Assembly (NCBI GenBank): GCA_002748735.1
Contig: PDTC01000009.1
Coordinates: forward strand, 151,738 to 215,737
Length of the DNA stretch: 64,000 nt
Source: Desulfobulbus propionicus
GTDB taxonomy: Bacteria > Desulfobacterota > Desulfobulbia > Desulfobulbales > Desulfobulbaceae
Reading direction: 5' to 3'
The notes beneath the pieces are model-generated. The model saw nothing but the letters and a program-made list of their open reading frames with translations, was not told the DNA's origin and made no database searches. Position numbers and translations under genes: made by a program. Every line of letters starts with the position of its first letter. Within the stretch, counting starts at the first letter, position 1. Shown in pieces: positions 40,633-58,889 of the stretch.

Positions 40633-41988
40633 TTATTGAACGACGTCTGTCAGACCTTTCATTAGTGAGGACAAGCCTGAGCTACGCATCATAACAAAGG
40701 GTTTCTGGTACCTCTTGCACATCTTCTTCACGCAGGTACATGCATTATGGCTGACGCAGTCCACAGGACACAGCACAACATCGGCTGTTGCCAGCATCTT
40801 CGGCAGCATACTCCGGGCCGCCTCCTTGCCACCGTCATGGTGCATGAACTGCCCCCCATGCTGCTCAACAAGAATGCGGTAATGCGAGACCAATCTGTGC
40901 AGGCCACCAACATACAGAACTGTTTTTCCACATAAATCCGGACCAGGACACCGTTCAGTGTCAAGGTCGGCACAGTTTTCATTACCGCAGCAGGACGTAA
41001 CAGGAGAACGCTGCATCAGGGCTGTTTCCAGGGCGGCAATTTCGTGGCGATGCTCTGTGTCTGTCTCCTGCCAGGCAATTTTTTCAGCCTCTAAGGCCTG
41101 CACCTGCTCCTGAAGCTGCTCAAGCTGTGCCGACAGTTTCCCAAGCTCGTTTTGGGCGGCATCCTTCATGCTAGATAATTCAGTATTTTTCGCCTGCAGG
41201 CCGGAGATCATCTCCTGTAGCGCTTCATTTTTTTCAGCAACGCTGTTCAAGGTGCTACCCGATTCCAACGCCTCGCAACGCTTTCGCAACTGTTCATTGT
41301 CAGTGACGAACTGTCTCGCCTTTTCAGCCTCTACCTGTAGCCTTTCGAGCTCTTGTTCGAGCCGGGTTTTCTCTTCCAGATACATCTGGCGCTCCGAGCC
41401 GAGGACCTCAGAAAGCATAGTCTCACGCGCCTGCAGATCATCAATGCGTTTACGCTCACGCTGCTGATCGCCAAAGATATCAAAGCTGATCATATGCGAC
41501 TGGCCATAGACATGATCTATAAGTTCCTTGCTCGCAGCTGGATGGGTCATGACCGCCCAGTACGCCCCGGCAATGTTTTTTTTCTGCACATCCTCCTGCC
41601 ACAGAGTACGCAGTTCATCATCATCGCTAGCCACAGCGTAGCGCTTCAGACTCACCCGATATTTCGTATCAAGTATCTTTTGAAGAGCCCTGGTCTTGGG
41701 GGTCCTTGACGAGGAATAGGAGGAGAGAAAGGAGTGTACCTCATAGTCTGAGTACCCCGTATCAAGACAGAACACCTTCTTTTTGGCAATCCTGCGCAGA
41801 TCCTGGCGACGCAGACAAATGCCCATGACCGAACAGTGATATCCTTTCTTGATCTCCCAAAGCTTCTTGCGCTTCCGCCCTGTCTCTCCCGACACTGGCA
41901 GTGCCTCTGGTTCGCCTTTTAGTATTTGTCCACAACCAGCATCTTCACCTTGAAGAGATTCAATAAATTTCATAACTTCATGGGTCAT
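40633..41988 (-). CDS. DUF2325 coiled-coil protein
   Basis: A 451-residue protein. The N-terminal third is globular and unassigned. Residues about 185-330 form a long coiled coil rich in Glu/Gln/Leu. A Cys cluster (SCCGNENC, CPGPDLCG) precedes the C-terminal DUF2325 domain: VLYVGGLHRLVSHY, HHDGGKE, ADVVLCPVDCVSHNAC and KPFVMMRSSGLSSL. DUF2325 proteins are small Rossmann-like and often metal- or stress-linked; the biochemical role is unknown. The promoter has a TTAGTCT/AGACTAA inverted repeat (42007-42037) like the iron-box half sites found elsewhere in this region, which suggests iron control. Confidence 0.75.
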   Translation of the reverse strand: MTHEVMKFIESLQGEDAGCGQILKGEPEALPVSGETGRKRKKLWEIKKGYHCSVMGICLRRQDLRRIAKKKVFCLDTGYSDYEVHSFLSSYSSSRTPKTRALQKILDTKYRVSLKRYAVASDDDELRTLWQEDVQKKNIAGAYWAVMTHPAASKELIDHVYGQSHMISFDIFGDQQRERKRIDDLQARETMLSEVLGSERQMYLEEKTRLEQELERLQVEAEKARQFVTDNEQLRKRCEALESGSTLNSVAEKNEALQEMISGLQAKNTELSSMKDAAQNELGKLSAQLEQLQEQVQALEAEKIAWQETDTEHRHEIAALETALMQRSPVTSCCGNENCADLDTERCPGPDLCGKTVLYVGGLHRLVSHYRILVEQHGGQFMHHDGGKEAARSMLPKMLATADVVLCPVDCVSHNACTCVKKMCKRYQKPFVMMRSSGLSSLMKGLTDVVQ

Positions 41989-45659: not shown

Positions 45660-45983
45660 TTACTCCGCAGCAGACTTACCCACTGCCTCGGCCTCGGCCT
45701 CGGCTCTGGCATCTTCGAACTTCTCCTTCATCTCCTCAATACCACTCTGAGCTGCAGCGGTGAGCCTGGAGACAGACTTGACAACACCCTTTTGTACTGA
45801 CTCGTTCGTCAACAGCAAAGTGATGGCTGCTCCAACAAGCGCGCCTTTCCAAAACTTGGTGTCGCTGACATCAAGGCCCAGCAGGCTGGTGGCGGTCGGA
45901 TAAACTGGCTGCTGATACATTGGTGCCGTTGCCTGGGCTGTCTGGTAGTTGAGAGGTTGAACTGGTACTGTATTCTGATCCAT
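45660..45983 (-). CDS. small FWKG-motif membrane protein, copy 1 (ferrosome-like cluster)
   Basis: Start ATG 45983 has AAGGAAG nine bases upstream; the product is 107 residues. A Pro/Gln/Tyr-rich N-terminus is followed by one hydrophobic segment in the motif FWKGALVGAAITLLLTNESV, then an amphipathic, acidic helix with Ala-Glu repeats (EDARAEAEAEAVGKS). The same FWKGxLVGAAxxxLLxxExV motif occurs in the product of 46507-47133. No established family recognised, though it resembles YtxH-like single-pass proteins. As last gene of the minus-strand run from the ATPase at 47695, it probably coats or shapes the membrane of the compartment. Confidence 0.7.
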   Translation of the reverse strand: MDQNTVPVQPLNYQTAQATAPMYQQPVYPTATSLLGLDVSDTKFWKGALVGAAITLLLTNESVQKGVVKSVSRLTAAAQSGIEEMKEKFEDARAEAEAEAVGKSAAE

Positions 45984-46067
45984 AACCGTTATCTTCCTTG
46001 TGTAGTAATGTGCATATATCTTTGCCACCGGACGATTAATCGCGGCAACACCCTGAACGGACAGATG

Positions 46068-46502
46068 TTATTTTTCCAGCAGATAGCTGACTCCGGTTGC
46101 CGTTGCCAAAGTGACAGCAAGCCCGGCAATCCCTCCGCTGGTCAGGCCGTTGGCAGCAGCAGTGGCAGCCGCAGCCGCCATACCGCCGGCCGCACCCCTG
46201 ACAAGGCTGTCAGCCACAGCCGCTCCCACACTCATCTCGCCAGCCTCAACCTTGTGCAGGTTTGCCCCCATAGTACCGGTTCCGGCGACAATCAGGCCGA
46301 AGACCCCTGCTGCCAGGGCAGGAGAAGCGGTGCTCGCCGGGGGAGCAGCGAGTGTTTGCGGTTGAACGTGTCCGGGCATCGGAGCCTGTGGTGGGAGACC
46401 ATAGAGCGGCGAAGCAAGCGGTACGTACTGATGGAGCGGTTCTGTAACCTGCGTAGTCATCTGGGGCATGGTTCCGGGACCGGGGACCTGTTGTGTTTGC
46501 AT
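46068..46502 (-). CDS. Gly/Ala-rich hydrophobic protein, copy 1 (ferrosome-like cluster)
   Basis: Start ATG 46502 with GGGAG seven bases upstream, 4 bases after the previous stop; the product is 144 residues. A Pro/Gln-rich soluble N-terminus (to about 60) is followed by two or three Ala/Gly-rich membrane segments (VFGLIVAGTGTMGANL, GGMAAAAATAAANGL, GLAVTLATATGVSYLL). It is a paralogue of the product of 53483-53869: both share G-x-NL-x-x-V-x-x-G-x-M and a final TM before a short charged tail. Glycine-zipper helices like these can oligomerise and bend membranes. Function inferred from context. Confidence 0.7.
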   Translation of the reverse strand: MQTQQVPGPGTMPQMTTQVTEPLHQYVPLASPLYGLPPQAPMPGHVQPQTLAAPPASTASPALAAGVFGLIVAGTGTMGANLHKVEAGEMSVGAAVADSLVRGAAGGMAAAAATAAANGLTSGGIAGLAVTLATATGVSYLLEK

Positions 46503-46506
46503 GGTT

Positions 46507-47133
46507 CTACTCCCTTCCCGAAGGTGTATCACCCTGTTGTGGCTTTGCGGGGGCAGGGCCCTGTTCCTCGTTCTTCTTCAGGCCAGGAAACAGCCCTCCG
46601 AAATTCTTGCCCATGGCATTTCTCACCGGTTCGCTGGAGAGCAGCACTGATGCTGCAGCACCGACCAGGAGCCCTTTCCAGAACTGCTCATCCTGGGCTG
46701 TATTTGTATACAGGGTCTTGACCACCTCACCAACATTAGCCTCACCATTGATGAACTGTTCGACACTACTGACAATCTGGCCATAGCGTTGCTGGGCTGC
46801 CGCCTGCTGGGCGGCAAGTTCCTCCGCTGTAGGTGGTGGGGGGTGCACATACACCGGCCCCGGGGCAGTATACGGAGGCTGCCAGCCGACAAACACAGGC
46901 TGTCCTGTAGCAGGATCAAGGAGGTATCCTGGCGGCAACGGTGGCCATTGTCCCGGGTATTCAGCCCGGGGGGGAGCTGTGGAGGCGGCGACTTGAGGCC
47001 CATCACCAGGCGGCTGCCCCGCAGCAGCCTGATAATCAGTACCACTGACCGTCTCGCCTGCCGGAGTATCCTCCCCCGTTGTTTCAGCACCCTCTTGCAG
47101 GCCCTGATCCTGACTGGCAATCTCCTTGTCCAT
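46507..47133 (-). CDS. Pro-rich FWKG-motif membrane protein, copy 2 (ferrosome-like cluster)
   Basis: A 208-residue protein with AGAGGAG before the ATG. Residues 1-95 are acidic then Pro/Tyr/Gly-rich (PPLPPGYLLDPATGQPVF). A short helix follows (EELAAQQAAAQQRY), then a single membrane segment in FWKGLLVGAAASVLLSSEPV. The tail is Lys/Pro-rich. It is the long version of the 45660-45983 product. Proline-rich N-termini on small membrane proteins recall organelle-associated proteins of magnetosomes and ferrosomes. No direct family match known to me. Confidence 0.68.
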   Translation of the reverse strand: MDKEIASQDQGLQEGAETTGEDTPAGETVSGTDYQAAAGQPPGDGPQVAASTAPPRAEYPGQWPPLPPGYLLDPATGQPVFVGWQPPYTAPGPVYVHPPPPTAEELAAQQAAAQQRYGQIVSSVEQFINGEANVGEVVKTLYTNTAQDEQFWKGLLVGAAASVLLSSEPVRNAMGKNFGGLFPGLKKNEEQGPAPAKPQQGDTPSGRE

Positions 47134-47145
47134 ACCGCTTCTCCT

Positions 47146-47490
47146 CTATTTCTGCTGGTCCAGCAATGCGAGCAATTTTGCCCTGACCGGTTCCCGCTGC
47201 AACGGATACTTATGCAAGGTCCCGATCTCTTCCCAGAGATCGAACGGGAGCAGCGACGGGTCATAGTCGATGACCACAGACAGGGCTTTACGGTTCACCC
47301 GGAAACCCTGCACACCAGGAATTCTCGCAACAAGCTCTTCGATATCTTGCTGCTCAACAGCGGCAAGATCCTTGAGCTTGCTCCATTTCGCCTTGATCCG
47401 GATCCGTCCCCGAACATGGTGGGCAATCTGTAGGTGGCGGACATGATCAAGAAAGGCGTCCACCACCTCATCGTTACTGTACTCCATCAT
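47146..47490 (-). CDS. CxxC-less heavy-metal-associated (HMA-like) domain protein
   Basis: A 114-residue soluble protein with GAGGGG before the ATG. It has a ferredoxin-like HMA pattern: first strand HHVRGRIRIKA, helix, IPGVQGFRVN, strand KALSVVIDYD, then a C-terminal helix. The CxxC copper/zinc motif is absent, as in HMA_2-type domains. HMA-containing FezC-type proteins accompany ferrosome ATPases. Related N-terminal domains precede both ATPases in this cluster. Probable adaptor or iron sensor of the complex. Confidence 0.72.
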   Translation of the reverse strand: MMEYSNDEVVDAFLDHVRHLQIAHHVRGRIRIKAKWSKLKDLAAVEQQDIEELVARIPGVQGFRVNRKALSVVIDYDPSLLPFDLWEEIGTLHKYPLQREPVRAKLLALLDQQK

Positions 47491-47694
47491 CGCTTCCCCT
47501 CTGTCACCGGGACCTCAGCGTCAGCCTGGCCCGCATCAACGCTCAACCTGCCTGAGCATCCCTACAGCCCTCAGGCGATCCTGCTTCGGGATGACTTTAC
47601 TGAATTCTCTGCATTCATGCATGGAAAAAGCAACCTGAGATGTTGGTTAAGGGTGAAATACCCCTCTCAGTATGCATTTTGCTACCGTGCAGTG

Positions 47695-49941
47695 CTACTC
47701 ACGCTTCAACGGTTCTACCGGAGGTTCCCAGGACAACAGCCTGCTGGAATTGATGAGGATACCTCCGGTGTGAAAAATATGAATCATCCCTGCGAGAATC
47801 GGAGAGAGTACGCCCGCCATTCCCAGAGCTGCACCAAAAAGGTCGGTACCAATCGCCAGATAGTGATTCTGGTCAATCACGGCCATGGTTTTATGGCTCA
47901 GATTGCGTACCTTCATCAAGCCCTCAAGGTTCGAATCAGCCAGGGCAATATCCGCAGCCTCCATGGCCACTTCAGCGCCGGCAGCCCCCATGGCAACCCC
48001 GATATCTGCACAGGCCAGGGCCAAGGCATCGTTGACACCATCTCCCACCATAACAACGTGCTGACCAGCCTGCTGGATCTCCTTTATCCAGGCCGCCTTC
48101 GCTTCGGGCATCAGCGCTGAACGGCAATCATCAAAGGGAAAGGCCTGCAGCAAGGATCTGGCCACGTCATCACTGTCACCGGTAACCAGGTGTACCTGCT
48201 TGACACCGTCACGTATCAGCGAATGAAGGGTTGAGACGGCTTCGACGCGGATCGGGTTGGCCACGGCCATCATGCCCTGTGCCTTGCCATTGCGAGAAAT
48301 GTAGACAACCGTGTTTCCCGCCTCTCGAAGAGTGGTTGAGGCCCTGTCAAACCAACGTACATCAACCTGATGCTCCTCCATAAACTGCTTATTCCCCACC
48401 AAAATCACAGCATCTCCACCCACCGTGCAGAGAACCCCGCGGCCTGGTTTGAACTCACAGACGGCGTGACGATCAGGCAGCAACTCACGGGCCTGGGCCT
48501 CGGCAAGGATGGCCTTGGCCATGGGATGCTGATTATGTGACTCGGCGGTAGCGGCCATAACCAGAAGGGCCTCTTCAGTGATCGTCGGCGTCCTGCCGAT
48601 GATACGGACGATCTTCGGCTGTTCAGTTGTCAGGGTGCCGGTCTTGTCAAAACAGTACACCTCGGCCTTACCCACAGCCTCAAGGTACAGCCCTCCCTTG
48701 ATCAAGATCGAGTTTTTGGCGGCATTGGCGAGGGCGGCCGTGACCGCAGAAGAGGCGGCCAGTACAGTAGCGCAGGGGCAAGACATGACCAGCATCACCG
48801 TCAGAGCCCGGAGTGGATCACCGGTCAGCAGCAGGGTCATCGCCGTGGCGGCGACCCCGATCTTCAACAGCCGGGCGGCAAGCTGATCGGCGCGCTGTTC
48901 CACGGGTGCCCGGTTGACCAGGCTGTCCTCGACCATTTGCATGATATGGGCAAGGTAGGTATCTTCCCCGGTCTTTGTGGTCTTGATAAACAAGATACCC
49001 TGACTGACGGAGGTGCCTGCATAGACGACATCTCCTGAAGAGCGAAGCACAGCCTCTGCCCTGCCGTTTATGGTGGCCTCATCCACCAGGGCCTCGCCAT
49101 CGGTAACAACCCCGTCCACAGGAAGTTTTTCACCGGTATGCACTGCGACAACGTCACCGGGACGAATGTCAGCCACCGGGGTTTCCAGTTCCATGCCATC
49201 GACCATCACATAGGCATTTGCTGGAGCAACCTCCAACATATCACGGATAGCCTGCCTGGAACGCTGTGCCACATACTCTTCGGTGAGTTCGGCCACATTG
49301 TAGATCCAGAGGATCTGCAGTGCCGAAAAGGCCTCCCCCATGGCAATAGTAATCACTGCTCCACAGGCCAAAAGTGGTTTGACTGTCATCTTATGGCAGG
49401 TAAAAGTGTCGTCTGCTGCCTCCTTTAAAAGCGGCATGATACCGGCCATGGCCACCACGCCAATCAGGCTTAACGGGCTCTGGAGAAGCGGCAGTTTGAA
49501 CATCCAGCTACGCAGACCAACATAGGCCATAAAGCCGCTCAACCAGATCACCCGGTTGCGTTTTTGAGAAAATGACTGCTGCGAATCGGTAAGACAGGTA
49601 TCACACGATTGTAGCTGCCTGGAGAGTAGCGGCGGGGCTTCCGGATAGATGACTGGCTGTAGCACCTGCTCGACTATTTCCAGGAGAAGGGTGCGCATCT
49701 GCGTGCGTTCATCATCATAGATGACAATCACCGAGCCGGTGGCAAACCTCGTCTCCACGCTGGAAACACCGGTTACACCAGTGAGACGGGTTTTCATCCA
49801 GGTCTGCTGCCTGCGACGGCGGCAAAGATCAGTGACCCGTACCCGGAAACGTCCGGGCATCGACTGTTTGACCTTCACCCCAGCCTTGTGCAAAAGTCCT
49901 GGTGTAAGCCTGGTTTTTCCATGAGGTGAAGAGACGTCCAT
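47695..49941 (-). CDS. P1B-type ATPase with SCPC motif and degenerate TGE (ferrosome-like cluster)
   Basis: A 748-residue heavy-metal ATPase. The N-terminal HMA-like domain (PGRFRVRV, residues 29-36) lacks CxxC. The core has M4 motif S387-C-P-C390, phosphorylation site DKTGT at 432, HP in SHNQHPMAKAI, and GDGVNDALA. The actuator TGES loop reads NGRA (about residue 293), so the glutamate that drives dephosphorylation is missing. The enzyme may thus be slow, locked or structural. It is the first gene of the run to 45660, with its own promoter at 49990-50018, and is divergent from two small membrane-protein genes. Relation to FezB-type ATPases is inferred. Confidence 0.88.
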   Translation of the reverse strand: MDVSSPHGKTRLTPGLLHKAGVKVKQSMPGRFRVRVTDLCRRRRQQTWMKTRLTGVTGVSSVETRFATGSVIVIYDDERTQMRTLLLEIVEQVLQPVIYPEAPPLLSRQLQSCDTCLTDSQQSFSQKRNRVIWLSGFMAYVGLRSWMFKLPLLQSPLSLIGVVAMAGIMPLLKEAADDTFTCHKMTVKPLLACGAVITIAMGEAFSALQILWIYNVAELTEEYVAQRSRQAIRDMLEVAPANAYVMVDGMELETPVADIRPGDVVAVHTGEKLPVDGVVTDGEALVDEATINGRAEAVLRSSGDVVYAGTSVSQGILFIKTTKTGEDTYLAHIMQMVEDSLVNRAPVEQRADQLAARLLKIGVAATAMTLLLTGDPLRALTVMLVMSCPCATVLAASSAVTAALANAAKNSILIKGGLYLEAVGKAEVYCFDKTGTLTTEQPKIVRIIGRTPTITEEALLVMAATAESHNQHPMAKAILAEAQARELLPDRHAVCEFKPGRGVLCTVGGDAVILVGNKQFMEEHQVDVRWFDRASTTLREAGNTVVYISRNGKAQGMMAVANPIRVEAVSTLHSLIRDGVKQVHLVTGDSDDVARSLLQAFPFDDCRSALMPEAKAAWIKEIQQAGQHVVMVGDGVNDALALACADIGVAMGAAGAEVAMEAADIALADSNLEGLMKVRNLSHKTMAVIDQNHYLAIGTDLFGAALGMAGVLSPILAGMIHIFHTGGILINSSRLLSWEPPVEPLKRE

Positions 49942-49989
49942 ACACTATTGCCCCCCAGGGCCACCTCCACACGGTGCTGAGTTCATCAC

Positions 49990-50018
49990 ATCTTAGGAGG
50001 TAAAAAATAAGTTGTCAA
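49990..50018 (-). promoter_or_regulatory. promoter of the 47695-49941 ATPase gene
   Basis: On the minus strand TTGACA (50013-50018), 17-base spacer, TAAGAT (49990-49995). It is 49 bases from the ATPase start. No exact TTAG-N6-CTAA box is present. Confidence 0.55.
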
Positions 50019-50048
50019 AAGCAAATAAAATATAATGATTTTAGATAG

Positions 50049-50077
50049 TTGACAGCGAATCACATCGCCATTACAAT
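50049..50077 (+). promoter_or_regulatory. strong sigma70 promoter for the small GKKxG pair
   Basis: TTGACA (50049-50054), 17-base spacer, TACAAT (50072-50077), 76 bases before ATG 50154. It is arranged back to back with the ATPase promoter. Confidence 0.65.
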
Positions 50078-50153
50078 ACCAGTAAACATAACGACTGGGT
50101 TTCTTGACCAAGAAAAGGTACCCGTTTGATTCACCATGGACAAAGGAGACATC

Positions 50154-50336
50154 ATGCTCTACGTACCCCTGACGGCACATCCCCTTGGCTGGCTCATCCT
50201 TGGCGCCGGCGGCTATGCCCTGTACAAGGCTGGTAAAAAGAAGGGTGAAAAAGAAGTTACCTCCACTGAAATTCCTCGTGTTCCTGCCTCTCTTACGCAG
50301 ACGGCAACAGTCGAGGAGAAAAAAGGAGACAGATGA
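50154..50336 (+). CDS. small GKKxG single-pass membrane protein 1
   Basis: From ATG 50154, with AAAGGAG five bases upstream, it encodes 60 residues. The motif LGWLILGAGGYALYKAGKKKGEK gives one glycine-rich membrane helix followed by a basic patch and a short polar tail. The next gene encodes a paralogue and overlaps by ATGA. Such one-helix proteins beside metal ATPases recall PacL/DUF1490 partners of mycobacterial P-ATPases in layout, though I see no homology. Likely cluster component on the opposite strand. Confidence 0.7.
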   Translation: MLYVPLTAHPLGWLILGAGGYALYKAGKKKGEKEVTSTEIPRVPASLTQTATVEEKKGDR

Positions 50337-50617
50337 TGGCACATCCCATAGGCTACATCCCCCTGTTAGGGAGCAATCCCGTTGGTTGGGCCGTGCTGGG
50401 CACAGCTGGCTATCTGGCTTACCGCGCCGGGAAAAAATCGGGCCAAAAAAGCGACCAACAGGTCGAACGCGAAAACCTTGCCGACCGGACCATAAAGGGC
50501 GCCATGAAAACCGCGTACAAGACCAAAAAGAAGGTTGACACTTCGCTGACAAAGACCAGGGAAAAGTACTCTGGCATGTGGCAGGAAGCCCGCAATGAGC
50601 TGGAAGGAGAGGCATAA
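50333..50617 (+). CDS. small GKKxG single-pass membrane protein 2
   Basis: A 94-residue paralogue of the upstream gene: VGWAVLGTAGYLAYRAGKKSGQK. It has a longer, basic, helical tail (KGAMKTAYKTKKKVDTS) ending in an acidic stretch. AAAGGAG precedes it; ATG 50333 or 50336 may be used. The stop lies 3 bases from the convergent stop of the triple-FeoA gene. Confidence 0.7.
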   Translation: MMAHPIGYIPLLGSNPVGWAVLGTAGYLAYRAGKKSGQKSDQQVERENLADRTIKGAMKTAYKTKKKVDTSLTKTREKYSGMWQEARNELEGEA

Positions 50618-50620
50618 CCG

Positions 50621-51379
50621 TCACTGTTGTTGCCCTGTCAACGGGTCACTATCGTTTGCCTCACTTCGGACAATGACCTGACCCGCCTGTGTCGGTGTGA
50701 GATACAGGCGGAGCCCGCCAGCACTGCTGATCGTTACTGGCTGCGATACCGGTTTGTGCAGTTCCTGCGTCTGCTCTATGGACTCGAGAAACAGGGAGCA
50801 CCCTGCCCGAATCCCATGGGTCTTTAAATGGAGCTGTATCTTTTTACCGCCGATGATTTCCTGAAGGAAAAACTCCTCCCGGCGTCGGGCAAAATAAAAC
50901 TGTGTTGGTTCACCTCCTCGGGGATATCCCCAGAGGCGGGCCGCCTCGCCCTCCGACAGCCTGGTGCGTGTCTGCCGGTCGACAATCGTTATATAATCCA
51001 TGTGCGGCAGACTCCTGATCATGGTTACAGGGCCATCAAGGACCAGGCCAAGATGCTCCAGTGCCTTGGTGCATCCTCTTCCACAGGTTGTCGTCTCAAT
51101 GTGGCCGGTCTCACCTCGCTCTAACTCCACCAGGGGTTTACGCTCGCCAGCACTGTCGGAGTGCACCAGCACCTTGATTCCCAGACCAGCGGGCACCACC
51201 ACGTCTCCCTTGGTTCCCCGTACCCGCACAGGATTAAAACTGATCTCATCATCAAGCCGCAACAGGTGGCTGCCGGGAAACAGTCCCAAGCGCTGCAGCC
51301 AGGAACCCAATGCAGCGTCGACCACTTCCAGCAGTTCCAAGTCGGTATTGACGGGTGCATCTATCAGCGCTGAATACAT
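50621..51379 (-). CDS. triple FeoA-domain protein
   Basis: From ATG 51379 (GAGG ten bases upstream, 22 bases after the ATPase stop) it encodes 252 residues. The frame is open to 51508 inside the ATPase gene. Three SH3-like FeoA modules can be seen: LGLFPGSHLLRLDDE...VVVPAGLGIKVLV; LGLVLDGPVTMIRSLPHMDYITIV; and HGIRAGCSLFLESI...GGLRLYLTPTQAGQVIV. The first and third carry the FeoA-like leucine-glycine turns and end in the substrate-like beta strand. FeoA domains bind FeoB and are fused to some DtxR regulators. Here the protein may link the compartment ATPase to ferrous iron. Domain count is by eye. Confidence 0.7.
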   Translation of the reverse strand: MYSALIDAPVNTDLELLEVVDAALGSWLQRLGLFPGSHLLRLDDEISFNPVRVRGTKGDVVVPAGLGIKVLVHSDSAGERKPLVELERGETGHIETTTCGRGCTKALEHLGLVLDGPVTMIRSLPHMDYITIVDRQTRTRLSEGEAARLWGYPRGGEPTQFYFARRREEFFLQEIIGGKKIQLHLKTHGIRAGCSLFLESIEQTQELHKPVSQPVTISSAGGLRLYLTPTQAGQVIVRSEANDSDPLTGQQQ

Positions 51380-51401
51380 CTCTGCATGTCCTCGAAAAAG
51401 G

Positions 51402-53486
51402 TTACTCCGCCTTTCTGCCCCGTATCCCTGCATATCCAAGAATCCCCACCGTACTGAGATTATGGAGCAGGGCTGCTGCCACTGGTGGGATACCCCCAAA
51501 GGTGGCAAGCAGTAAAAACGTAGAATTCAGGCCAACTGCAGCGACAAAAGACTGTTTAATCGTTGTTTCACTGCGCTGGGCAATGTGTCGCCCAATCAGT
51601 AAACAGCGAAGATCATCTCGCAACAAAATCACCTGAGAAGACTCTTTGGCGAGATCAGCCCCATCGGGGAGGCAGATGCCCACATCGGCTGAGACCAGTG
51701 CAGGAGCGTCATTGACACCATCACCGACAAAACCGACCCGCTGCCCATCTTCTTTGAGTTCCGCGACAATTCTGGCCTTGTCCTCGGGTTTGAGTTCCCA
51801 GTGTACCTCATCGACGCAGGGAAGCTGTGCGGCCAGGGCCAAGGCGGTCCGCCTGGCATCACCGGTGAGGATAACGATCTTTTCTATCCCGCTCTGTTTG
51901 AGACCATGGAGTATCTCCCCGGTCTCCGGCCGCAGTTCATCACGCAGTCCGATCACCCCGACCAGTTTGCCGGCGCAGCTCACGTACAAGAGGCTCTTGC
52001 CGTCTTCCTGGAGCGCTGTCACCTCCTGGTCAACACCGCTGCAATCAATACCCTCGTCATGTTCGATAAAATGCCGGCTACCCACCAGTACGTTTTCCCC
52101 GTCGATATACGCGGAAACACCATGGGCAACAATAAAGTCTACCTGGCTGGTGCGGGGCAGGTGTAGCCCTCGATCACGTGCTGCCTGAACCACTGCCCCG
52201 GCCACGGGATGACTGTAATGCTCCTCAGCGCTGGCTGCCAAGCGCAGGAGGCCATCGCCATCGTAGCCGTTCAACCCATAAATATCCGTGACTCTGAGCT
52301 GGCCTTTGGTCAATGTTCCTGTCTTGTCAAAGACCAGCGTATTCACTCTGGAAAGTCCGTCCATGGCCTGCGCACCTTTGAGCAAAACTCCATGCCGGGC
52401 AGCCGTGTACATGGCCACTTTAACGGCAACAGGGGTTGCCAGTTTTATGGCACAGGAATAGTCAACCGTGAGGACAGCGGCGGCCTTTTGCAGGTCACGC
52501 GTAAGGGCGAGCAGACCAAGGCCGAGCCCAAAGGTGACTGGGACGAGTTTATCGGCAAGCTCGTCGCTCTTTTTCTGGCTCTCTGACTGGTAGCGCAGTG
52601 AGTTTTCCAGGAAGGTGGATATCCTGGCCATGGAGGTCTCAGCCCCTACTCGCACCGCCTCAAAAACAAGGCGCCCCTCCTCAACTATCGATCCAGAGAG
52701 GACTTCAGCCCCCGGTTCCACATGGACCGGCACAGACTCGCCGGTGATGGAGCTGGTATTCACCGAGGCCTCCCCTTCAACGACAATACCGTCAAGGGGA
52801 ATGAGCTCGCCGGCGCCGCAGACGACCCGGTCACCGATACGGGCATCCTGGAGAGGGATCTCCATCTCATGGCCGTCGATCTCTACCCAGAGCTTTTCCA
52901 CCTGCGGTTTCAGTAGACTCTTCAGCAGACCGGTGGTCTGATTCTCACTGAGATCTTCAATATACTCTCCCAGGGAAAGGAGAAAGACGATGGAGGTGGC
53001 AGTGACATAACTACCGCAGACCAGAGAAAACAGTACCGCAGAGGCATCAAGGACTTCAACCTTGACCCCCCGGGTCCACAGGGTCGTGACGCCCTCTGCA
53101 AGCACGGGCAGGCACAGCGCCAAGGCAAAAGGCCCAGCCACCACTGACGGCAGCAGTAAAAGTGACAGACTCGCCACACCACGCCCAACAAGGGAAAGCG
53201 GCGACTGCAGGGTCTTTTCCACGCCATTGCCGGTGAGAACATTACGCGGGACTTGGGCAAGACAGCTCAGCAAGGCGCTACGGGTCTGCTGACAGCCGTC
53301 GTAGTGGATGACCACGCACCTCGCCCTGGTGTTGACACGGGCCAAATCTACCCCGGAAATGTTTTCCAGGGTCGCTTCAAGGTAGGTGGCGTCCAGTTCC
53401 TGATGGCAGAGGACTGGCGAGCGTAGACGAATTCTGTGCTGTAATTCATGAACTATGGTAACTGCCGAGTTCTCCCCACACCTCAC
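51402..53486 (-). CDS. P1B-type ATPase with DYSCA motif (FezB-like candidate)
   Basis: A 694-residue P-type ATPase. The N-terminal HMA-like domain (QHRIRLRS) lacks CxxC. TGES is intact at 248-251. The M4 region reads V-D342-Y-S-C345-A instead of CPC/SPC. DKTGT has its Asp at 387; HYSHPVAGAV and GDGVNDAPAL are intact. A single-Cys, Pro-less M4 motif is unlike the Cu, Zn and Co subgroups and, as I recall without being able to check it, suits the iron-linked P1B-6 group to which FezB belongs. It starts with GTG overlapping the upstream small gene (GTGA). It probably pumps Fe(II) into a membrane compartment. Confidence 0.85.
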   Translation of the reverse strand: MRCGENSAVTIVHELQHRIRLRSPVLCHQELDATYLEATLENISGVDLARVNTRARCVVIHYDGCQQTRSALLSCLAQVPRNVLTGNGVEKTLQSPLSLVGRGVASLSLLLLPSVVAGPFALALCLPVLAEGVTTLWTRGVKVEVLDASAVLFSLVCGSYVTATSIVFLLSLGEYIEDLSENQTTGLLKSLLKPQVEKLWVEIDGHEMEIPLQDARIGDRVVCGAGELIPLDGIVVEGEASVNTSSITGESVPVHVEPGAEVLSGSIVEEGRLVFEAVRVGAETSMARISTFLENSLRYQSESQKKSDELADKLVPVTFGLGLGLLALTRDLQKAAAVLTVDYSCAIKLATPVAVKVAMYTAARHGVLLKGAQAMDGLSRVNTLVFDKTGTLTKGQLRVTDIYGLNGYDGDGLLRLAASAEEHYSHPVAGAVVQAARDRGLHLPRTSQVDFIVAHGVSAYIDGENVLVGSRHFIEHDEGIDCSGVDQEVTALQEDGKSLLYVSCAGKLVGVIGLRDELRPETGEILHGLKQSGIEKIVILTGDARRTALALAAQLPCVDEVHWELKPEDKARIVAELKEDGQRVGFVGDGVNDAPALVSADVGICLPDGADLAKESSQVILLRDDLRCLLIGRHIAQRSETTIKQSFVAAVGLNSTFLLLATFGGIPPVAAALLHNLSTVGILGYAGIRGRKAE

Positions 53487-53869
53487 AGTGAATGATCCTC
53501 CAGCTCTTCCATGTGAGGGGAAGTGGTTGCACTTTTTTTGGTGAGAGAATCAATGGCATAGCCGGCAGCAACGAGAATCCCCGCTGTGCCGACAATTTCC
53601 GGGATCGTGGTTCGCCTGGTTTGTGCGAGAATAATCGAGGAGAGGGCTCCCTTAGCAAGGCCGTTGACGAGGGCCTGCGGTAGGGTCATCGTCCCCCGGC
53701 TGACACTGACCAGGTTGGAACCGATGGCAACTGCACTGGAAATGGCAAGGCCCGTGGCAATAGTTGTGACAGGGACGTTCTGCTGTAAGGCGCCGGTTGA
53801 CGGTACTAACTGCATACCTGGTGCAGCGTTGCCCGGATATCCAGCCGTCCCTCCAGGAGGGGCTGCCAT
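53483..53869 (-). CDS. Gly/Ala-rich hydrophobic protein, copy 2 (ferrosome-like cluster)
   Basis: Start ATG 53869, with AGGTGA at good spacing, gives 128 residues; a TTG at 53884 overlapping the regulator stop is the alternative. The N-terminus is Pro/Gly/Gln-rich. Three hydrophobic segments follow (ATGLAISSAVAIGSNL, ALVNGLAKGALSSIILA, IVGTAGILVAAGYAI). It is a paralogue of 46068-46502, located at the other end of the cluster in front of the FezB-like ATPase. It overlaps the ATPase start and follows the DtxR-type regulator, making a three-gene string. Confidence 0.7.
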   Translation of the reverse strand: MAAPPGGTAGYPGNAAPGMQLVPSTGALQQNVPVTTIATGLAISSAVAIGSNLVSVSRGTMTLPQALVNGLAKGALSSIILAQTRRTTIPEIVGTAGILVAAGYAIDSLTKKSATTSPHMEELEDHSL

Positions 53870-53880
53870 GAAATCACCTA

Positions 53881-54342
53881 TCAACGCTCTGATTCCTCAA
53901 CTTTTTTGAGGTATTTCTCAAAGCATTCGTACTTATCGCACCCCTGATCCGGACACTCGTGCCGCAGAAATTCTGTATACTTGATCATGCGTTCAATGAT
54001 ACCGCTGGAGGCGACATGCTCCATCTTGCACGCCCCCTCATCAGCAGTGTCGTGGTCGATGCCCAAAACCTCAATAAAAAAATCTCGCAACGCCACATGG
54101 CGATAAAGAACTTTTTGCGCAGCAACCTTTCCCTTCTTGGTCAGGGTAATCGCTTCATAAGGGGCATAGTTGACGAGTCCCTTCTCGCTAAGCATTCGCA
54201 GAGCCTCGGTCACCGAAGGGCCAGTGACTTTCAATCGTTCCATAATATCCTTGGATCGTGCAGCTCCCTTATCCTGACAAACAAGATAAATTGCCTCAAG
54301 ATAGTCTTCAGAGCTGGCACTCAATCCGGATTTTTTGGCCAT
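53881..54342 (-). CDS. DtxR-family metalloregulator 1
   Basis: A 153-residue regulator. The N-terminal winged helix (SSEDYLEAIYLVCQDKGAARSKDI...VTGPSVTEALRMLSEKGLV) is followed by the metal-binding dimerisation domain (RHVALRDFFIEVLGIDHDTADEGACKMEHVAS). The SH3-like third domain is missing. The C-terminus has extra cysteines (HECPDQGCDKYECFEKY). It leads directly into the hydrophobic protein and the FezB-like ATPase, so it likely represses them when Fe(II) or Mn(II) is ample. It is a paralogue of 58392-58889. Confidence 0.9.
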   Translation of the reverse strand: MAKKSGLSASSEDYLEAIYLVCQDKGAARSKDIMERLKVTGPSVTEALRMLSEKGLVNYAPYEAITLTKKGKVAAQKVLYRHVALRDFFIEVLGIDHDTADEGACKMEHVASSGIIERMIKYTEFLRHECPDQGCDKYECFEKYLKKVEESER

Positions 54343-54504: not shown

Positions 54505-54660
54505 CTACTCTTCCTTGGTCGCTCCTTTCGAACTCTCGGTCTGGGAAGAGCGTGAACACGAACCACAGGAGCACCCCCTGTTCACCACAAAGACGCGGTA
54601 CAGGTACCAGATTGCCCCAACCACCACCGCACCCGTAAGTAAATAATCCCACCATTGCAT
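54505..54660 (-). CDS. FeoB-associated Cys-rich membrane protein
   Basis: A 51-residue protein: MQWWDYLLTGAVVVGAIWYLYRV forms one membrane helix, followed by the cysteine motif GCSCGSCS and a polar tail. GGAGGT lies five bases before the ATG. This matches the small FeoB-associated Cys-rich proteins that accompany ferrous iron transporters, perhaps as a pore-side iron ligand or redox element. It lies between the regulator and the periplasmic protein gene, on the strand opposite to feoAB. Confidence 0.85.
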   Translation of the reverse strand: MQWWDYLLTGAVVVGAIWYLYRVFVVNRGCSCGSCSRSSQTESSKGATKEE

Positions 54661-54827: not shown

Positions 54828-55145
54828 CTACTCGACTATTTCCTTGCCTGGTACCTGAATCTGGTGGCCTTCGCCAGCATCAAACATGACGACATAGTCT
54901 TCTTTGGGTTTATCAAAGGAAAAATCTGAGTCTTCGCCCATCTTCCCTTCGAACAGAACCTTGCCATCAGGTGTTTCAACGCGCATGGTAACCCCGCTGG
55001 CAGAAGAGCCATCAGAAAAACCACCCTCGCAGGTAATGGTTCCATCACCGTTATCAAAGCAGGAACACAGCGGCGTATGCGCCTGTGCAATAACAGCGGT
55101 GAAAAGAAGTATTGACATCGTCAAAAAACAACTTGTTACACGCAT
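54828..55145 (-). CDS. small periplasmic protein divergent from feoA
   Basis: A 105-residue protein with a signal peptide ending near AQA. The mature part starts HTPLCSCFDNGDGTITCEGGF and continues as a small beta domain (VTMRVETPDGKVLFEGKMGEDSDFSF). Three Cys and a His near the N-terminus could bind metal. The beta part recalls NikL/DUF4198-type periplasmic metal proteins, without certainty. Two exact iron boxes lie 10-40 bases upstream, so it belongs to the same regulon as feoAB. Confidence 0.65.
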   Translation of the reverse strand: MRVTSCFLTMSILLFTAVIAQAHTPLCSCFDNGDGTITCEGGFSDGSSASGVTMRVETPDGKVLFEGKMGEDSDFSFDKPKEDYVVMFDAGEGHQIQVPGKEIVE

Positions 55146-55673: not shown

Positions 55674-55725
55674 CTGTAACGTGCCAGCATTACGGGAAAG
55701 ACTGCTATCTGTACGTGATTTTCCC

Positions 55726-58272
55726 ATGACAGAATCCTTCACGCAAAAAACGTTGCTGGTCGGCCTTGCCGGTCAACAGAATACCGGCAAGTCGACCGTC
55801 TTCAACATGCTGACCGGCGCGAATCAGCATGTCGCCAATTATCCGGGTGTAACGGTTGACAAAAAATCGGGCACCTACACCTCCAAGGGGGTCAAGGTGG
55901 AAACCGTTGACCTGCCCGGTACCTACAGCCTCTCCTCCTTTTCCCTTGAAGAAAGGGTCACCCGCGATTTTCTTATCCGAGAACAGCCCGATGTGCTGGT
56001 CAACGTCGTCGACGCCTCCTCGCTTAAACGCAGTCTGTATTTCACCTTCCAGCTTCTGGAGATGGGATATCCTCTGGTGGTCGCCCTCAACATGATGGAT
56101 GTGGCCAGACGTAATGGTGTGCAAATCGACACTGAGCGCCTGCAACAACACCTTGGTGTTCAGGTCATCCCCACAGTGGGCCGTCGCCGCAAAGGTAAAA
56201 AGGAACTGCGCGACGCTATTCTTGCTGCCGCGACCCAAAAAGAAGCGCAGCCTCTGGAGATCTCGTATGGCCAACTGGAGCCCCAGCTGACAGCTCTCAC
56301 TGCAGAAATTGGCCGGAGCGAGTGGGCAAAGACGCATCCTGCCCGCTGGCTGGCGGTAAAACTTGCCGAGGGTGACAGCGAAGCAGAACGCATCGTCACC
56401 GAAGAAATGGGGCCATCAAGCCCTGCCCTGACAATAGCGGCAGAACTCAGGCAAAGGTTTGAGGAAGGGCATCACCTCTCTGTCGCCGACTTCATGGTCA
56501 GCTGCCGCGACACACTTGCCGCCTCCGTTATCGAGACCTGCGTCAGCAAGACAAAAAACAACAGAAAGAACATCTCCGAGCACATAGACTCCCTGGTGCT
56601 CAATCGCCTTGCAGCCCCCTTCTTTCTGGTGGGCACCGTCTTTGTTATCTACCAGCTGTCAATCGTCAAGGGATACGAGCTCACCCAGTACTGGTGGCCA
56701 GTACTGGCCAACGTCCGTGCCATTGTCGCCTCGATTCTTCCGGATGCGGGCCTGGTGGAAGACCCCTACATTCGCTCCATGGGACTCTGGATGGTCGATT
56801 CCGCCAATGCCCTGCTGAACTATATTCCCATCTTTCTCATTCTGTTCAGCCTCATCGCCATCCTTGAAGACTCGGGATATATGGCGAGAATTGCCTTTAT
56901 TCTCGATAAACTTTTCCATGCCTTTGGCCTACATGGACAATCGACCCTGCCCTACATTCTCGGAGGAGTCTTTGCGGGTGGCTGCGCTGTTCCCGGGGTC
57001 ATGGCAACCAAGGGAATCCCTGACGAACGTTCACGCATGGCCACCATCCTCACCGTACCGTACATGAACTGTCTGGCCAAAATCCCCTTTTACACACTGC
57101 TGGTCAACGTTTTCTTTGCGCAGCACAAATCCTGGGTCATGCTGTTTCTCTCCACCATCACCATCTTTGTGGCACTGCTAGTGGCAAGGTTGCTGACAGC
57201 CACCCTGCTTAAGCCCATGGAAACCGCCCCCTTTGTTATGGAGCTGCCCAATTACCACCCACCAACCCTGTTCGGTGTCGGCCAACGGGCCATTGAGCGG
57301 ACATGGCAGTACATCAAAAAAGTTGGCTCTATTGTGGTTGCGGTTTCCGTCTGCGTCTTCACTCTCCTGCAGTTTCCTGGGCTCAGTGATGAACGCATGG
57401 CGTACTACAACACCCAGATGAATCAGGCGGTAGAGAAATTTTTCAAAAAAACCGAGAAGAGTACCTATGCCTCGCAGTTCCAGGATGAGGCCTCACTGAT
57501 CAGGCTCATCAATATTTACACCGCCTACAAGGCTGCCAAGCTCAACATCAGTAATGCCGAGGCCAGCAAAGCACTTGACGCCAATTATCAGAAAAACTAT
57601 CCGGAACTCTTCGTCTTTCTTAAACCCAAAAAAGACAACGAGGCCAAAATAGTCAACAAGGCGCTGCGAAGGCTGACCAAAACGCGTAAATCCCTGCGCC
57701 GCACCATCAAGGAAGAACACATCGAGGCCAGTTTTCTTGGCCATGTGGGGCGCAGCCTCGAACCGATAACCCAATGGGCTGGTTTCAACTGGAAAATCAA
57801 TATCGCTATTCTCTCAAGCTTTGCTGCCCGTGAATCAAGCGTCGCCACCATCGGTGTACTCTACCAGCAGGGTGCCGAGGAGAACAAAGAACTCGAAGAG
57901 CGCGTGAAAAGAGAAAGTGACGAGAGCGGCGGCAACATTACCCCCCTGCACGCCCTGGCGATCATGGTCTTCTTTGCCCTATACCCGCCCTGCCTTGCCA
58001 CCACCATTATGATCAAAGTCCAGACAGGCTCGTATAAGTGGATGATATTTTCCATGCTCTTTCCCACCACCTTGGGTTTTCTGGTGGCCACCGGTATCTA
58101 CACCGGCGGTAACCTTCTGGGATTGAGTGGGCTCGAGATGATGGCTGCTTTCTCTGTACTTGTCGTGACACTGGCAATCGTCACCGGCCTGCACAAGACC
58201 TGGCGGGACACCCATCGGGGTATCAGAGGATTGCCGGTTTTCAGCAGCAAAAAACCACCATTCTCTTCCTGA
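55726..58272 (+). CDS. feoB: ferrous iron transporter FeoB
   Basis: Fe(II) importer with an N-terminal GTPase domain and a polytopic membrane domain. Start at ATG 55726; GTG 55681 would add 15 residues. The product is 848 residues. G1 is GQQNTGKS (residues 16-23), a variant of GNPNxGKT. G2 VTVDKKSG, G3 DLPGTYSL and G4 NMMD follow. Gate motifs FLGGxFAGGCAVPGVMATKGIPDERSRM and YMNCLAKIPFYT are present. About 110 residues of Lys-rich insertion (57400-57730) sit between late membrane segments, longer than usual. It ends before a bidirectional terminator. Confidence 0.95.
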   Translation: MTESFTQKTLLVGLAGQQNTGKSTVFNMLTGANQHVANYPGVTVDKKSGTYTSKGVKVETVDLPGTYSLSSFSLEERVTRDFLIREQPDVLVNVVDASSLKRSLYFTFQLLEMGYPLVVALNMMDVARRNGVQIDTERLQQHLGVQVIPTVGRRRKGKKELRDAILAAATQKEAQPLEISYGQLEPQLTALTAEIGRSEWAKTHPARWLAVKLAEGDSEAERIVTEEMGPSSPALTIAAELRQRFEEGHHLSVADFMVSCRDTLAASVIETCVSKTKNNRKNISEHIDSLVLNRLAAPFFLVGTVFVIYQLSIVKGYELTQYWWPVLANVRAIVASILPDAGLVEDPYIRSMGLWMVDSANALLNYIPIFLILFSLIAILEDSGYMARIAFILDKLFHAFGLHGQSTLPYILGGVFAGGCAVPGVMATKGIPDERSRMATILTVPYMNCLAKIPFYTLLVNVFFAQHKSWVMLFLSTITIFVALLVARLLTATLLKPMETAPFVMELPNYHPPTLFGVGQRAIERTWQYIKKVGSIVVAVSVCVFTLLQFPGLSDERMAYYNTQMNQAVEKFFKKTEKSTYASQFQDEASLIRLINIYTAYKAAKLNISNAEASKALDANYQKNYPELFVFLKPKKDNEAKIVNKALRRLTKTRKSLRRTIKEEHIEASFLGHVGRSLEPITQWAGFNWKINIAILSSFAARESSVATIGVLYQQGAEENKELEERVKRESDESGGNITPLHALAIMVFFALYPPCLATTIMIKVQTGSYKWMIFSMLFPTTLGFLVATGIYTGGNLLGLSGLEMMAAFSVLVVTLAIVTGLHKTWRDTHRGIRGLPVFSSKKPPFSS

Positions 58273-58391: not shown

Positions 58392-58889
58392 TCACTCCTC
58401 TGTCTCTGTCGCACAGTACTTACAGGAAACATTGGCGCAGCCATGTTTGCAGTAATACCCAAAACCTGAATCCCAGTTAATCCCACTCTTGGGACACTTC
58501 TCCACATATTCAGCATACTGAACCAGTCGATCAACAATGGCCTTGGGCACGGAATGCTCCATCTTACAGGCGGCCTCATCCGCCTCCTGACCGTCAATGC
58601 CGAGGACGTTCACAAGAAAACGTTCCAACGCCTTGTGGCGGCGGACAATCTCCTTGGCCACGACCCTGCCTTTATCCGTCAAGGTGACGAGGTCGTATGG
58701 GGCATAGTTAATCAAGCCGAGCGACCCTAAGGTACGCAAGGCGACAGTTACCGAAGAAGCCCTGACATTCAAGTAGTTAGATATATCTTTGGCTTTGGCA
58801 GCCATCTTTTGTTCAGAAATCTGATAAATGGCTTCCAGGTAATCTTCCTGGCTGGCGGTGAGTTTAACATCTACAGCGTCTGTACCCAT
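58392..58889 (-). CDS. DtxR-family metalloregulator 2 with Cys-rich tail
   Basis: A 165-residue regulator: winged helix (TASQEDYLEAIYQISEQKMAAKAKDI) and metal-binding domain (RHKALERFLVNVLGIDGQEADEAACKMEHSVP). Like regulator 1 it lacks the SH3 domain, but its last 45 residues carry six cysteines (KCPKSG, YYCKHGCANVSCKYC). The tail could bind a metal or Fe-S cluster and add a second input. It is divergent from the ABC transporter genes, whose promoter has a near-perfect iron box. Confidence 0.9.
   Translation of the reverse strand: MGTDAVDVKLTASQEDYLEAIYQISEQKMAAKAKDISNYLNVRASSVTVALRTLGSLGLINYAPYDLVTLTDKGRVVAKEIVRRHKALERFLVNVLGIDGQEADEAACKMEHSVPKAIVDRLVQYAEYVEKCPKSGINWDSGFGYYCKHGCANVSCKYCATETEE

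Follow-up and report, generated by a model that had tools for sequence, protein, structure and literature searches.

The window analysed here is a 64,000-nucleotide stretch of a Desulfobulbus propionicus genome (assembly GCA_002748735.1, 1.81 Mb and 85.6% complete; contig PDTC01000009.1, positions 151738-215737), whose nearest named relatives by ATPase sequence are Desulfobulbaceae/Desulfocapsaceae genomes. It carries a gene cluster that is probably an expanded fez (ferrosome) locus. The parts named in an earlier, sequence-only reading of this DNA are present at 45.66-54.34 kb: two P1B-type ATPases, an HMA protein, six small proteins and a DtxR-family regulator, with feoAB adjacent. The genes, in window coordinates, are as follows.

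45660..45983, minus strand: s122, YtxH-like small protein (YtxH E 0.007, below cut-off)
46068..46502, minus strand: s154, MamC-family small protein (NCBIfam MamC E 3.8e-4)
46507..47133, minus strand: s208, Pro/Gly-rich protein with a Gly-rich C-terminal stretch (FWKGxLVGAA)
47146..47490, minus strand: HMA_2-type protein (PF19991 E 1.7e-5, below cut-off) with an HHVxGRIR motif
47695..49941, minus strand: ATPase 1, P1B ATPase of the CPCAT clade, with an N-terminal HMA_2 domain, CDTC in the linker and NGR in place of TGE
50154..50336, plus strand: p66, small protein encoded antiparallel to the operon, conserved and with codon-position bias
50333..50617, plus strand: p94, small protein, conserved and with codon-position bias
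50621..51379 (corrected start), minus strand: triple FeoA-domain protein (PF04023 E 3.6e-8, one match)
51402..53486, minus strand: ATPase 2, FezB-type P1B ATPase, with an N-terminal HMA_2 domain, VDYSCAIKL in transmembrane helix 4 (TM4) and LLHNLST in TM6
53483..53884, minus strand: s133, second MamC-family protein, a shorter hairpin, aligned with s154
53881..54342, minus strand: DtxR/MntR-family regulator (NCBIfam MntR E 1.7e-23, below cut-off) with a Cys-containing tail
54505..54660, minus strand: small Cys-containing protein, also near feoB in L045 and L049; no NCBIfam match
54828..55145, minus strand: small NikL-like protein (NF058648 E 5.6e-15, below cut-off), near feoB in L044, L045, L049 and L098
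55350..55673, plus strand: feoA
55681..58272, plus strand: feoB, Fe(II) transporter (TIGR00437 E 6e-142)

Read along the minus strand from 54.3 to 45.7 kb, the order is the DtxR-family regulator, s133, ATPase 2, triple FeoA, ATPase 1, HMA, s208, s154 and s122; between the FeoA gene and ATPase 1 the plus strand carries p66 and p94. Start positions were revised to probably 45983 for s122 and probably 46502 for s154, and no overlap with ATPase 2 is required for the FeoA gene: most of its relatives (alignment A3) start near MYSxLxDAP. The HMA protein, earlier described as lacking CxxC, contains no Cys in its whole length. The six small proteins had all been called membrane proteins; a simple hydropathy scan finds clear TM-like stretches in s154 (two) and s133, but the label is less sure for s122, s208, p66 and p94. 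The AlphaFold model of the FeoA protein (mean pLDDT 89.7) shows one strand/helix pattern occurring three times, as read by eye, and Pfam returns a single FeoA match; three FeoA domains are predicted from the model's secondary structure together with that match.

Third-position codon differences exceed those at first or second positions in every comparison of s122, s154, s208, HMA, p66, p94 and s133 with their relatives. This pattern supports a coding status for all seven tested small genes, and it rules out p66 and p94 as mere antisense open reading frames (ORFs). By eye, the N-terminus of p94 resembles p66 (PxGWxxLGxxGYxxYxAGKK). The s122 protein combines a Pro/Gln-rich N-terminus with a core (W/F)xKGALVGAA..LLTNExVQ.

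To place the two pumps, a tree of P1B ATPases was built from 158 sequences containing DKTGT, the entry condition for alignment and tree; two P2-type pumps were dropped and redundancy removal reduced the remaining 156 to 124. Of 76 sequences with D(Y/F)(S/A/G)C in TM4, 74 form one branch (SH-aLRT, a Shimodaira-Hasegawa-like approximate likelihood-ratio test, 100; quick method), the two outside it being L055 and L061. VDYSCAxKL in TM4 and LHNxxT in TM6 are common in this DYSC clade, which we take to correspond to the label P1B-6 and its DYSCA motif. ATPase 2 falls inside the branch, together with ATPases of fez-like operons from Shewanella, Azospirillum and purple bacteria, and outside it lie E. 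coli CopA, E. coli ZntA and a Sinorhizobium TPC ATPase. Judged by its clade, ATPase 2 is of FezB type. ATPase 1 belongs to a separate CPCAT clade (SH-aLRT 100). Neither pump joins E. coli CopA or ZntA, which lie in neither of the two clades; the tree thus rules out a Cu/Zn exporter reading of both, the grouping that the sequence-only reading had named as telling against it.

Some loci elsewhere carry more than one pump of this type. At L056 (10231-12258) and L057 (2093-4180) a second FezB-like ATPase stands in tandem with a normal one and keeps DYSCA in TM4; neither a DxxGxL(T/S) nor a GDxxND motif was found in these second copies, which are possibly catalytically inactive partner pumps. Three loci from Desulfovibrio metagenome-assembled genomes (MAGs; L081, L082, L094) have a further FezB-like ATPase with DFACAVKF or DYACAVKL in TM4, and in L081 and L082 it has its own inverted small-gene set, giving two fez-like units side by side.

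The surroundings of the FezB-type gene were compared across 79 loci, taken from the best 80 of 590 confirmed stretches that an alignment of a 150-residue fragment (A1) picked out in named genomes; three pairs are the same genome twice (L045/L075, L046/L070, L097/L214). Flanks were sufficient at 55 of the 79 (24 omitted for short flanks), and features were counted within 6.5 kb of FezB. The s122 family is the usual FezB neighbour in these fez-like operons (45/55 loci), with HMA and s154 also at 45 each, s208 at 33, triple FeoA at 20, ATPase 1 at 15 and p94 at 5. All 15 loci having ATPase 1 also have a triple FeoA within this distance. Four loci (L072, L074, L075, L076) were counted as lacking s154/s122 because their FezB block has moved; in L074, L075 and L076 both genes lie further off.

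The arrangement itself is shared. ATPase 2 has a match at E <= 1e-100 in 12 of the 73 genomes of the window's family; in 8 of these, counting the window, identity is at least 61%. The cluster order is retained in L045, L047, L049 and L050, and also in those parts of L046, L048 and L051 that their contigs cover (s133 was not detected in L046 and L051); L044 has the cluster genes in changed order. A third ATPase (TCPCALRL) follows s122 in L045, L047, L049 and L076 and is absent from the window. Further afield, collinear expanded loci follow the order ATP1-HMA-s208-s154-s122-(FezC-like)-FezB-FeoA3. The series ATP1-HMA-s208-s154-s122-FezB-FeoA3 was annotated in Desulfovibrio, Desulfuromusa, Desulfocarbo and Deferribacteraceae, each represented by MAGs or strains (L081, L082, L087, L096, L097, L101), and L080 has it without a separate HMA. 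The expanded form thus recurs in Desulfobacterota and Deferribacteraceae, with Desulfobacter vibrioformis DSM 8776 (L076) and Desulfocarbo indianensis SCBM (L097) as cultured carriers. As the same arrangement recurs in other genomes, it is, on this comparative evidence, not due to chance.

Simpler operons share the core. With the window-protein profiles, HMA-s208-s154-s122-FezB operons without extras were found in Shewanella, Photobacterium, Hafnia and purple bacteria, and the HMA-s208-s154-s122 block is common to the window, Shewanella (L136), Photobacterium (L103), Vibrio (L067) and purple bacteria; Azospirillum has HMA-HMA-s154-s122-FezB. The description of the cluster as an expanded fez-type locus holds at the gene level, with ATPase 2 in the DYSC clade and HMA, Pro-rich, MamC-like and YtxH-like neighbours as in other fez-like operons. 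Some fez-like operons are plasmid-borne, in Cereibacter, Azospirillum and Arcobacter (L064, L065, L066), and the Cereibacter azotoformans plasmid is typed conjugative.

ATPase 1 departs from the P-type norm. In the P-type cycle the phosphoenzyme is dephosphorylated through the TGE motif (PMC8880997). At this position in the actuator domain the window's ATPase 1 has NGR, and the CPCAT clade has [NTS]GR in 25 of 26 sequences (25 distinct) and NGV in one; none has TGE. TGE or SGE stands there in each of the 130 remaining aligned P1B sequences. GDG(V/I)ND is retained in 26/26; the equally complete DKTGT follows from the entry condition. The DKTGT filter cost no full-length ATPase-1 ORF at the fez loci, the ORFs without the motif there being fragments of 118-351 residues. 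The Glu is likewise missing from ATPase 1 relatives found in other settings, which read TGR, SGR or TGC; TGQ occurs at one fez locus (L211), and one relative outside fez has DKTGA (L208, G466). Since TGE is lost throughout the CPCAT clade and GDGxND is kept, the loss is, on alignment evidence, an old, conserved change.

This clade-wide pattern bears on whether the locus is in decay. If the genome is small and its fez locus decayed or only partly assembled, with the second ATPase dead and FezC lost from the operon, this would fit the missing TGE, the position of the FezC-like gene on another contig and the small, incomplete assembly. The retention of GDGxND across all 26 sequences argues otherwise, as do the open frames, normal codon-position bias and identical order in relatives, and we give this explanation the least credence of those considered.

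The two ATPases also tend to occur together. Among 395 Desulfobacterota genomes, ATPase 1 was found in 18 (E <= 1e-125), a FezB-type match in 34 (E <= 1e-110) and both in 11, against 1.5 expected (p 8e-9); scoring the two best candidates per genome makes these counts lower bounds. All 16 of the 34 ATPase-2 matches that were checked as loci have D(Y/F)(S/G)C. Without the window, and with G349 counted as not FezB-type, co-occurrence is 9/17 against 1.4 expected (Fisher p 8e-7). In G349 (L210), an ATPase 1-HMA-s208-s154-s122-p66/p94 cluster has a second ATPase with ACPCGIGL in TM4, not DYSC, in the place of FezB. At another locus (L201, G365) the neighbours of an ATPase 1 relative are feoAB, a DtxR gene and a FezC-like gene, and the stretch read contains no FezB-type gene. 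This context, as far as gene neighbourhood can tell, ties the CPCAT clade to iron independently.

The L201 arrangement, where fez small proteins are missing, could also be read as a sign of plasma-membrane iron (or Ni/Co) efflux or detoxification, in which both ATPases export, FeoA and DtxR regulate and no vesicle is made. P1B ATPases are mostly exporters, and the NikL-like protein near the window's cluster would suit such a role. The conserved Pro-rich, YtxH-like, MamC-like and FezC-like proteins, however, have no evident role in a simple exporter, and the small-protein set recurs in fez-like operons. We therefore regard an efflux locus as unlikely, and an expanded fez locus as the better account of the cluster.

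The small proteins s154 and s133 suggest a link to a second iron organelle, the magnetosome, a magnetic iron vesicle. Of the 15 proteins in the s154/s133 alignment, 14 are recognised by the NCBIfam MamC model (best E 7e-15), and the s133 profile finds MamC at E 1.7e-12. Compared by hhalign, the family and MamC are collinear over 88 columns (probability 98.8, E 1.4e-16). In the opposite direction, a profile built from fez proteins only recovers MamC in 20/20 MamC loci (E 2e-18 to 6e-15; best reversed decoy E 0.012); these loci come from the family of Magnetospirillum fulvum, and several are near-identical (15 distinct tree rows). In that family MamC exceeds the 100-bit cut-off in 21 of 55 genomes, and MamD adjoins MamC in one examined magnetosome locus. 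Profile evidence in both search directions thus makes homology of s154/s133 to MamC clear. The claim of duplicated small membrane proteins is right for this pair, as both profiles find MamC.

Twelve of 16 named fez genomes contain matches to the MamC model, 14 in all (E 3e-16 to 0.007), and comparison of coordinates by hand puts 13 of these within the fez locus, the exception being Thiohalocapsa halophila; none of 14 control genomes matches. Six of 148 Desulfobacterota genomes match at E <= 0.01: the window, the G015 fez cluster, an isolated ORF in G070 and three weak matches inside long frames. The G070 ORF (L178:2776-3153, E 2.5e-16) has no fez or mam neighbours visible by eye on its 7.5-kb contig.

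The fez proteins score 19-61 bits against the MamC model (NF038051), and none reaches the equivalog cut-off of 100 bits; s154 and s133 are best described, at the profile level, as MamC relatives, with no orthology implied. In an unrooted tree of 101 rows and 84 columns, MamC forms one clade (100/100) nearest to 15 fez rows, chiefly from Desulfobacterota and Deferribacteraceae (92/80), and the window's s154 and s133 sit in a neighbouring fez group. Because the tree has only 84 columns and no root, it does not tell the direction of transfer. The AlphaFold model of s154 has three helices at low confidence (mean pLDDT 68.7), and a search of solved structures with the MamC-like family gave no convincing match (best E 0.05). 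No MamC-ferrosome link was found in the literature searched, which did not cover the founding papers (Grant 2022, Pi 2023), so unpublished status is not claimed.

Two MamC-family proteins beside feoAB raise the question of whether the cluster builds a magnetosome-like organelle with a crystalline mineral instead of a ferrosome. The ATPases, however, are of fez type, and the window genes that were inspected include no evident mam/mad gene, mamC being the one mam gene for which window and genome were searched. Furthermore, profiles of s122, s208, HMA, p66, p94 and FeoA3 had no match at E <= 1 in the ORFs of 38 kb around mamC in one Magnetospirillaceae genome. A magnetosome-like organelle is very improbable on this balance, and a ferrosome remains the favoured product.

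PMC11334425 describes FezC as a DUF4405-like haem b protein. On this basis the window's HMA protein was not named FezC, and the earlier statement that FezC-type proteins carry HMA domains needs qualification: FezC is more than an HMA protein, although loci of Azospirillum, Azoarcus and Thauera encode an HMA_2 protein with a FezC-like hairpin fused to it (E 2e-8 to 5e-6). The FezC-like protein appears two-helical and is mostly 65-100 residues long; in the 14 seed loci, all collinear or nearly so, its gene is found between s122 and FezB, and its profile also matches near the cluster in L045, L048, L051, L074 and L076. Two His are invariant in 16 aligned members, of which nine match DUF4405 at E <= 0.05 (best 3e-5) and three match cytochrome b561. 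Next to FezB in G303 there is a weak match to DUF4405 (E 0.008). The window's genome has its FezC-like gene on a different contig (G000:C10, about 47768-48013), beside a gene resembling DUF2202 proteins by eye (L222, about 47768-48737 for both); an annotated DUF2202 gene also occurs in the Arcobacter plasmid fez-like operon (L066).

Several observations weigh against a fez interpretation. The FezB-type label of ATPase 2 comes from comparison with ATPases of fez-like operons rather than with proven FezB proteins. The FezC-like gene is absent from the window's cluster, and the DUF4405 model is unspecific, matching in 24/30 genomes and 11/14 controls. Purple-bacterial loci L090, L091, L092 and L095 have a FezB-type gene and triple FeoA with no s154/s122 detected within 6.5 kb, and 8 of the 18 genomes with ATPase 1 (G349 included) have no FezB-type gene, ATPase 1 lying beside feoAB in one of them (L201). 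The NikL-like neighbour would also fit Ni/Co, Fe(II) being the presumed substrate. A ferritin gene is also present in the genome, so the locus would not be the sole iron store and a vesicle would be an additional one. Finally, we know of no organelle seen for a cluster of the expanded type. With these points taken into account, we still consider it likely that the cluster is an expanded fez locus; that it makes iron vesicles is what we infer from the genes.

Under this interpretation, a DtxR-family repressor would sense cell iron and control the cluster genes together with feoAB. FeoB, a known family, would import Fe(II), and ATPase 2, in keeping with its clade, would sit in the vesicle membrane and move Fe(II) into the lumen. 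The s122, s208, p66 and p94 proteins may coat or shape this membrane. MamC in magnetosomes faces the mineral and influences its growth; s154 and s133 could likewise span the vesicle membrane, meet the mineral and influence its growth. The FezC-like protein encoded elsewhere in the genome, as a presumed haem protein, may, following PMC11334425, change the redox state of iron for loading or release. In ATPase 1, where Arg replaces the Glu of TGE, phosphorylation should remain possible and phosphate would be lost slowly. Because slow phosphate loss is expected, ATPase 1 would be a specialised add-on, for which gating, sensing or slow movement of iron is more likely than fast pumping. The triple-FeoA protein could be a cytosolic partner of the pumps.

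A broader proposal is tentative, and we think it less likely than not: ferrosomes and magnetosomes would share a homologous mineral-meeting membrane protein of MamC type, a standing component in fez operons that magnetosomes recruited from or passed to ferrosomes, and in the expanded loci a doubled MamC-like layer, a P1B ATPase lineage without fast dephosphorylation (TGE to [NTS]GR) and a triple-FeoA adaptor would build a regulated iron organelle that FezB loads and ATPase 1 gates or releases.

No clear Fur box was seen at the locus in a scan with a Fur consensus; the best match is 13/19, several such sites lie inside genes, and no shuffled control was run. Beyond feoB, at 58392-58889, lies another DtxR/MntR-family regulator, its tail rich in Cys. 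A coiled-coil protein whose end is presumably DUF2325-like lies 3.7 kb from the cluster (40633-41988) and has relatives at 8 other examined loci.

Ferrosomes, vesicles that store iron, are a recent discovery. The expanded locus alone is of moderate interest, to which the MamC homology and the TGE-less clade add. The homology hints that two bacterial iron organelles share parts, and a MamC relative in fez operons is a concrete gene target linking them. A conserved P1B clade without the dephosphorylation Glu probes how far the P-type cycle can change, and the two cultured carriers make the expanded system testable.

Compared with known systems, both pumps share core domains, DKTGT and GDGxND with CopA and ZntA. 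ATPase 1 also shares CPC in TM4, but forms a separate clade, lacks TGE and has HxxH(T/S) in TM6; ATPase 2 differs by its clade and by DYSCA in TM4. MamC (Mms13) of magnetosome islands (mamGFDC) belongs to the same hairpin family as s154/s133, whereas many fez members carry a Pro-rich N-terminal extension and MamC keeps its own clade in the tree. Among ferrosome systems, Desulfovibrio magneticus has fezABC and Shewanella putrefaciens a six-gene fez cluster. R. palustris is given six fez genes, RPA2333-2338 (PMC12016538), and in C. difficile FezA and FezB are required for ferrosomes and the system is Fur-repressed (PMC12574912). The window shares with known fez clusters the FezB-type ATPase, the HMA_2 protein, small Pro/Gly-rich proteins and the iron context, with a FezC-like gene in its relatives. 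It differs from them in its extra TGE-less ATPase clade, triple FeoA, p66/p94 pair, duplicated MamC-like protein and own DtxR regulator, in a FezB-FeoA block moved to the front and in an unlinked FezC-like gene.

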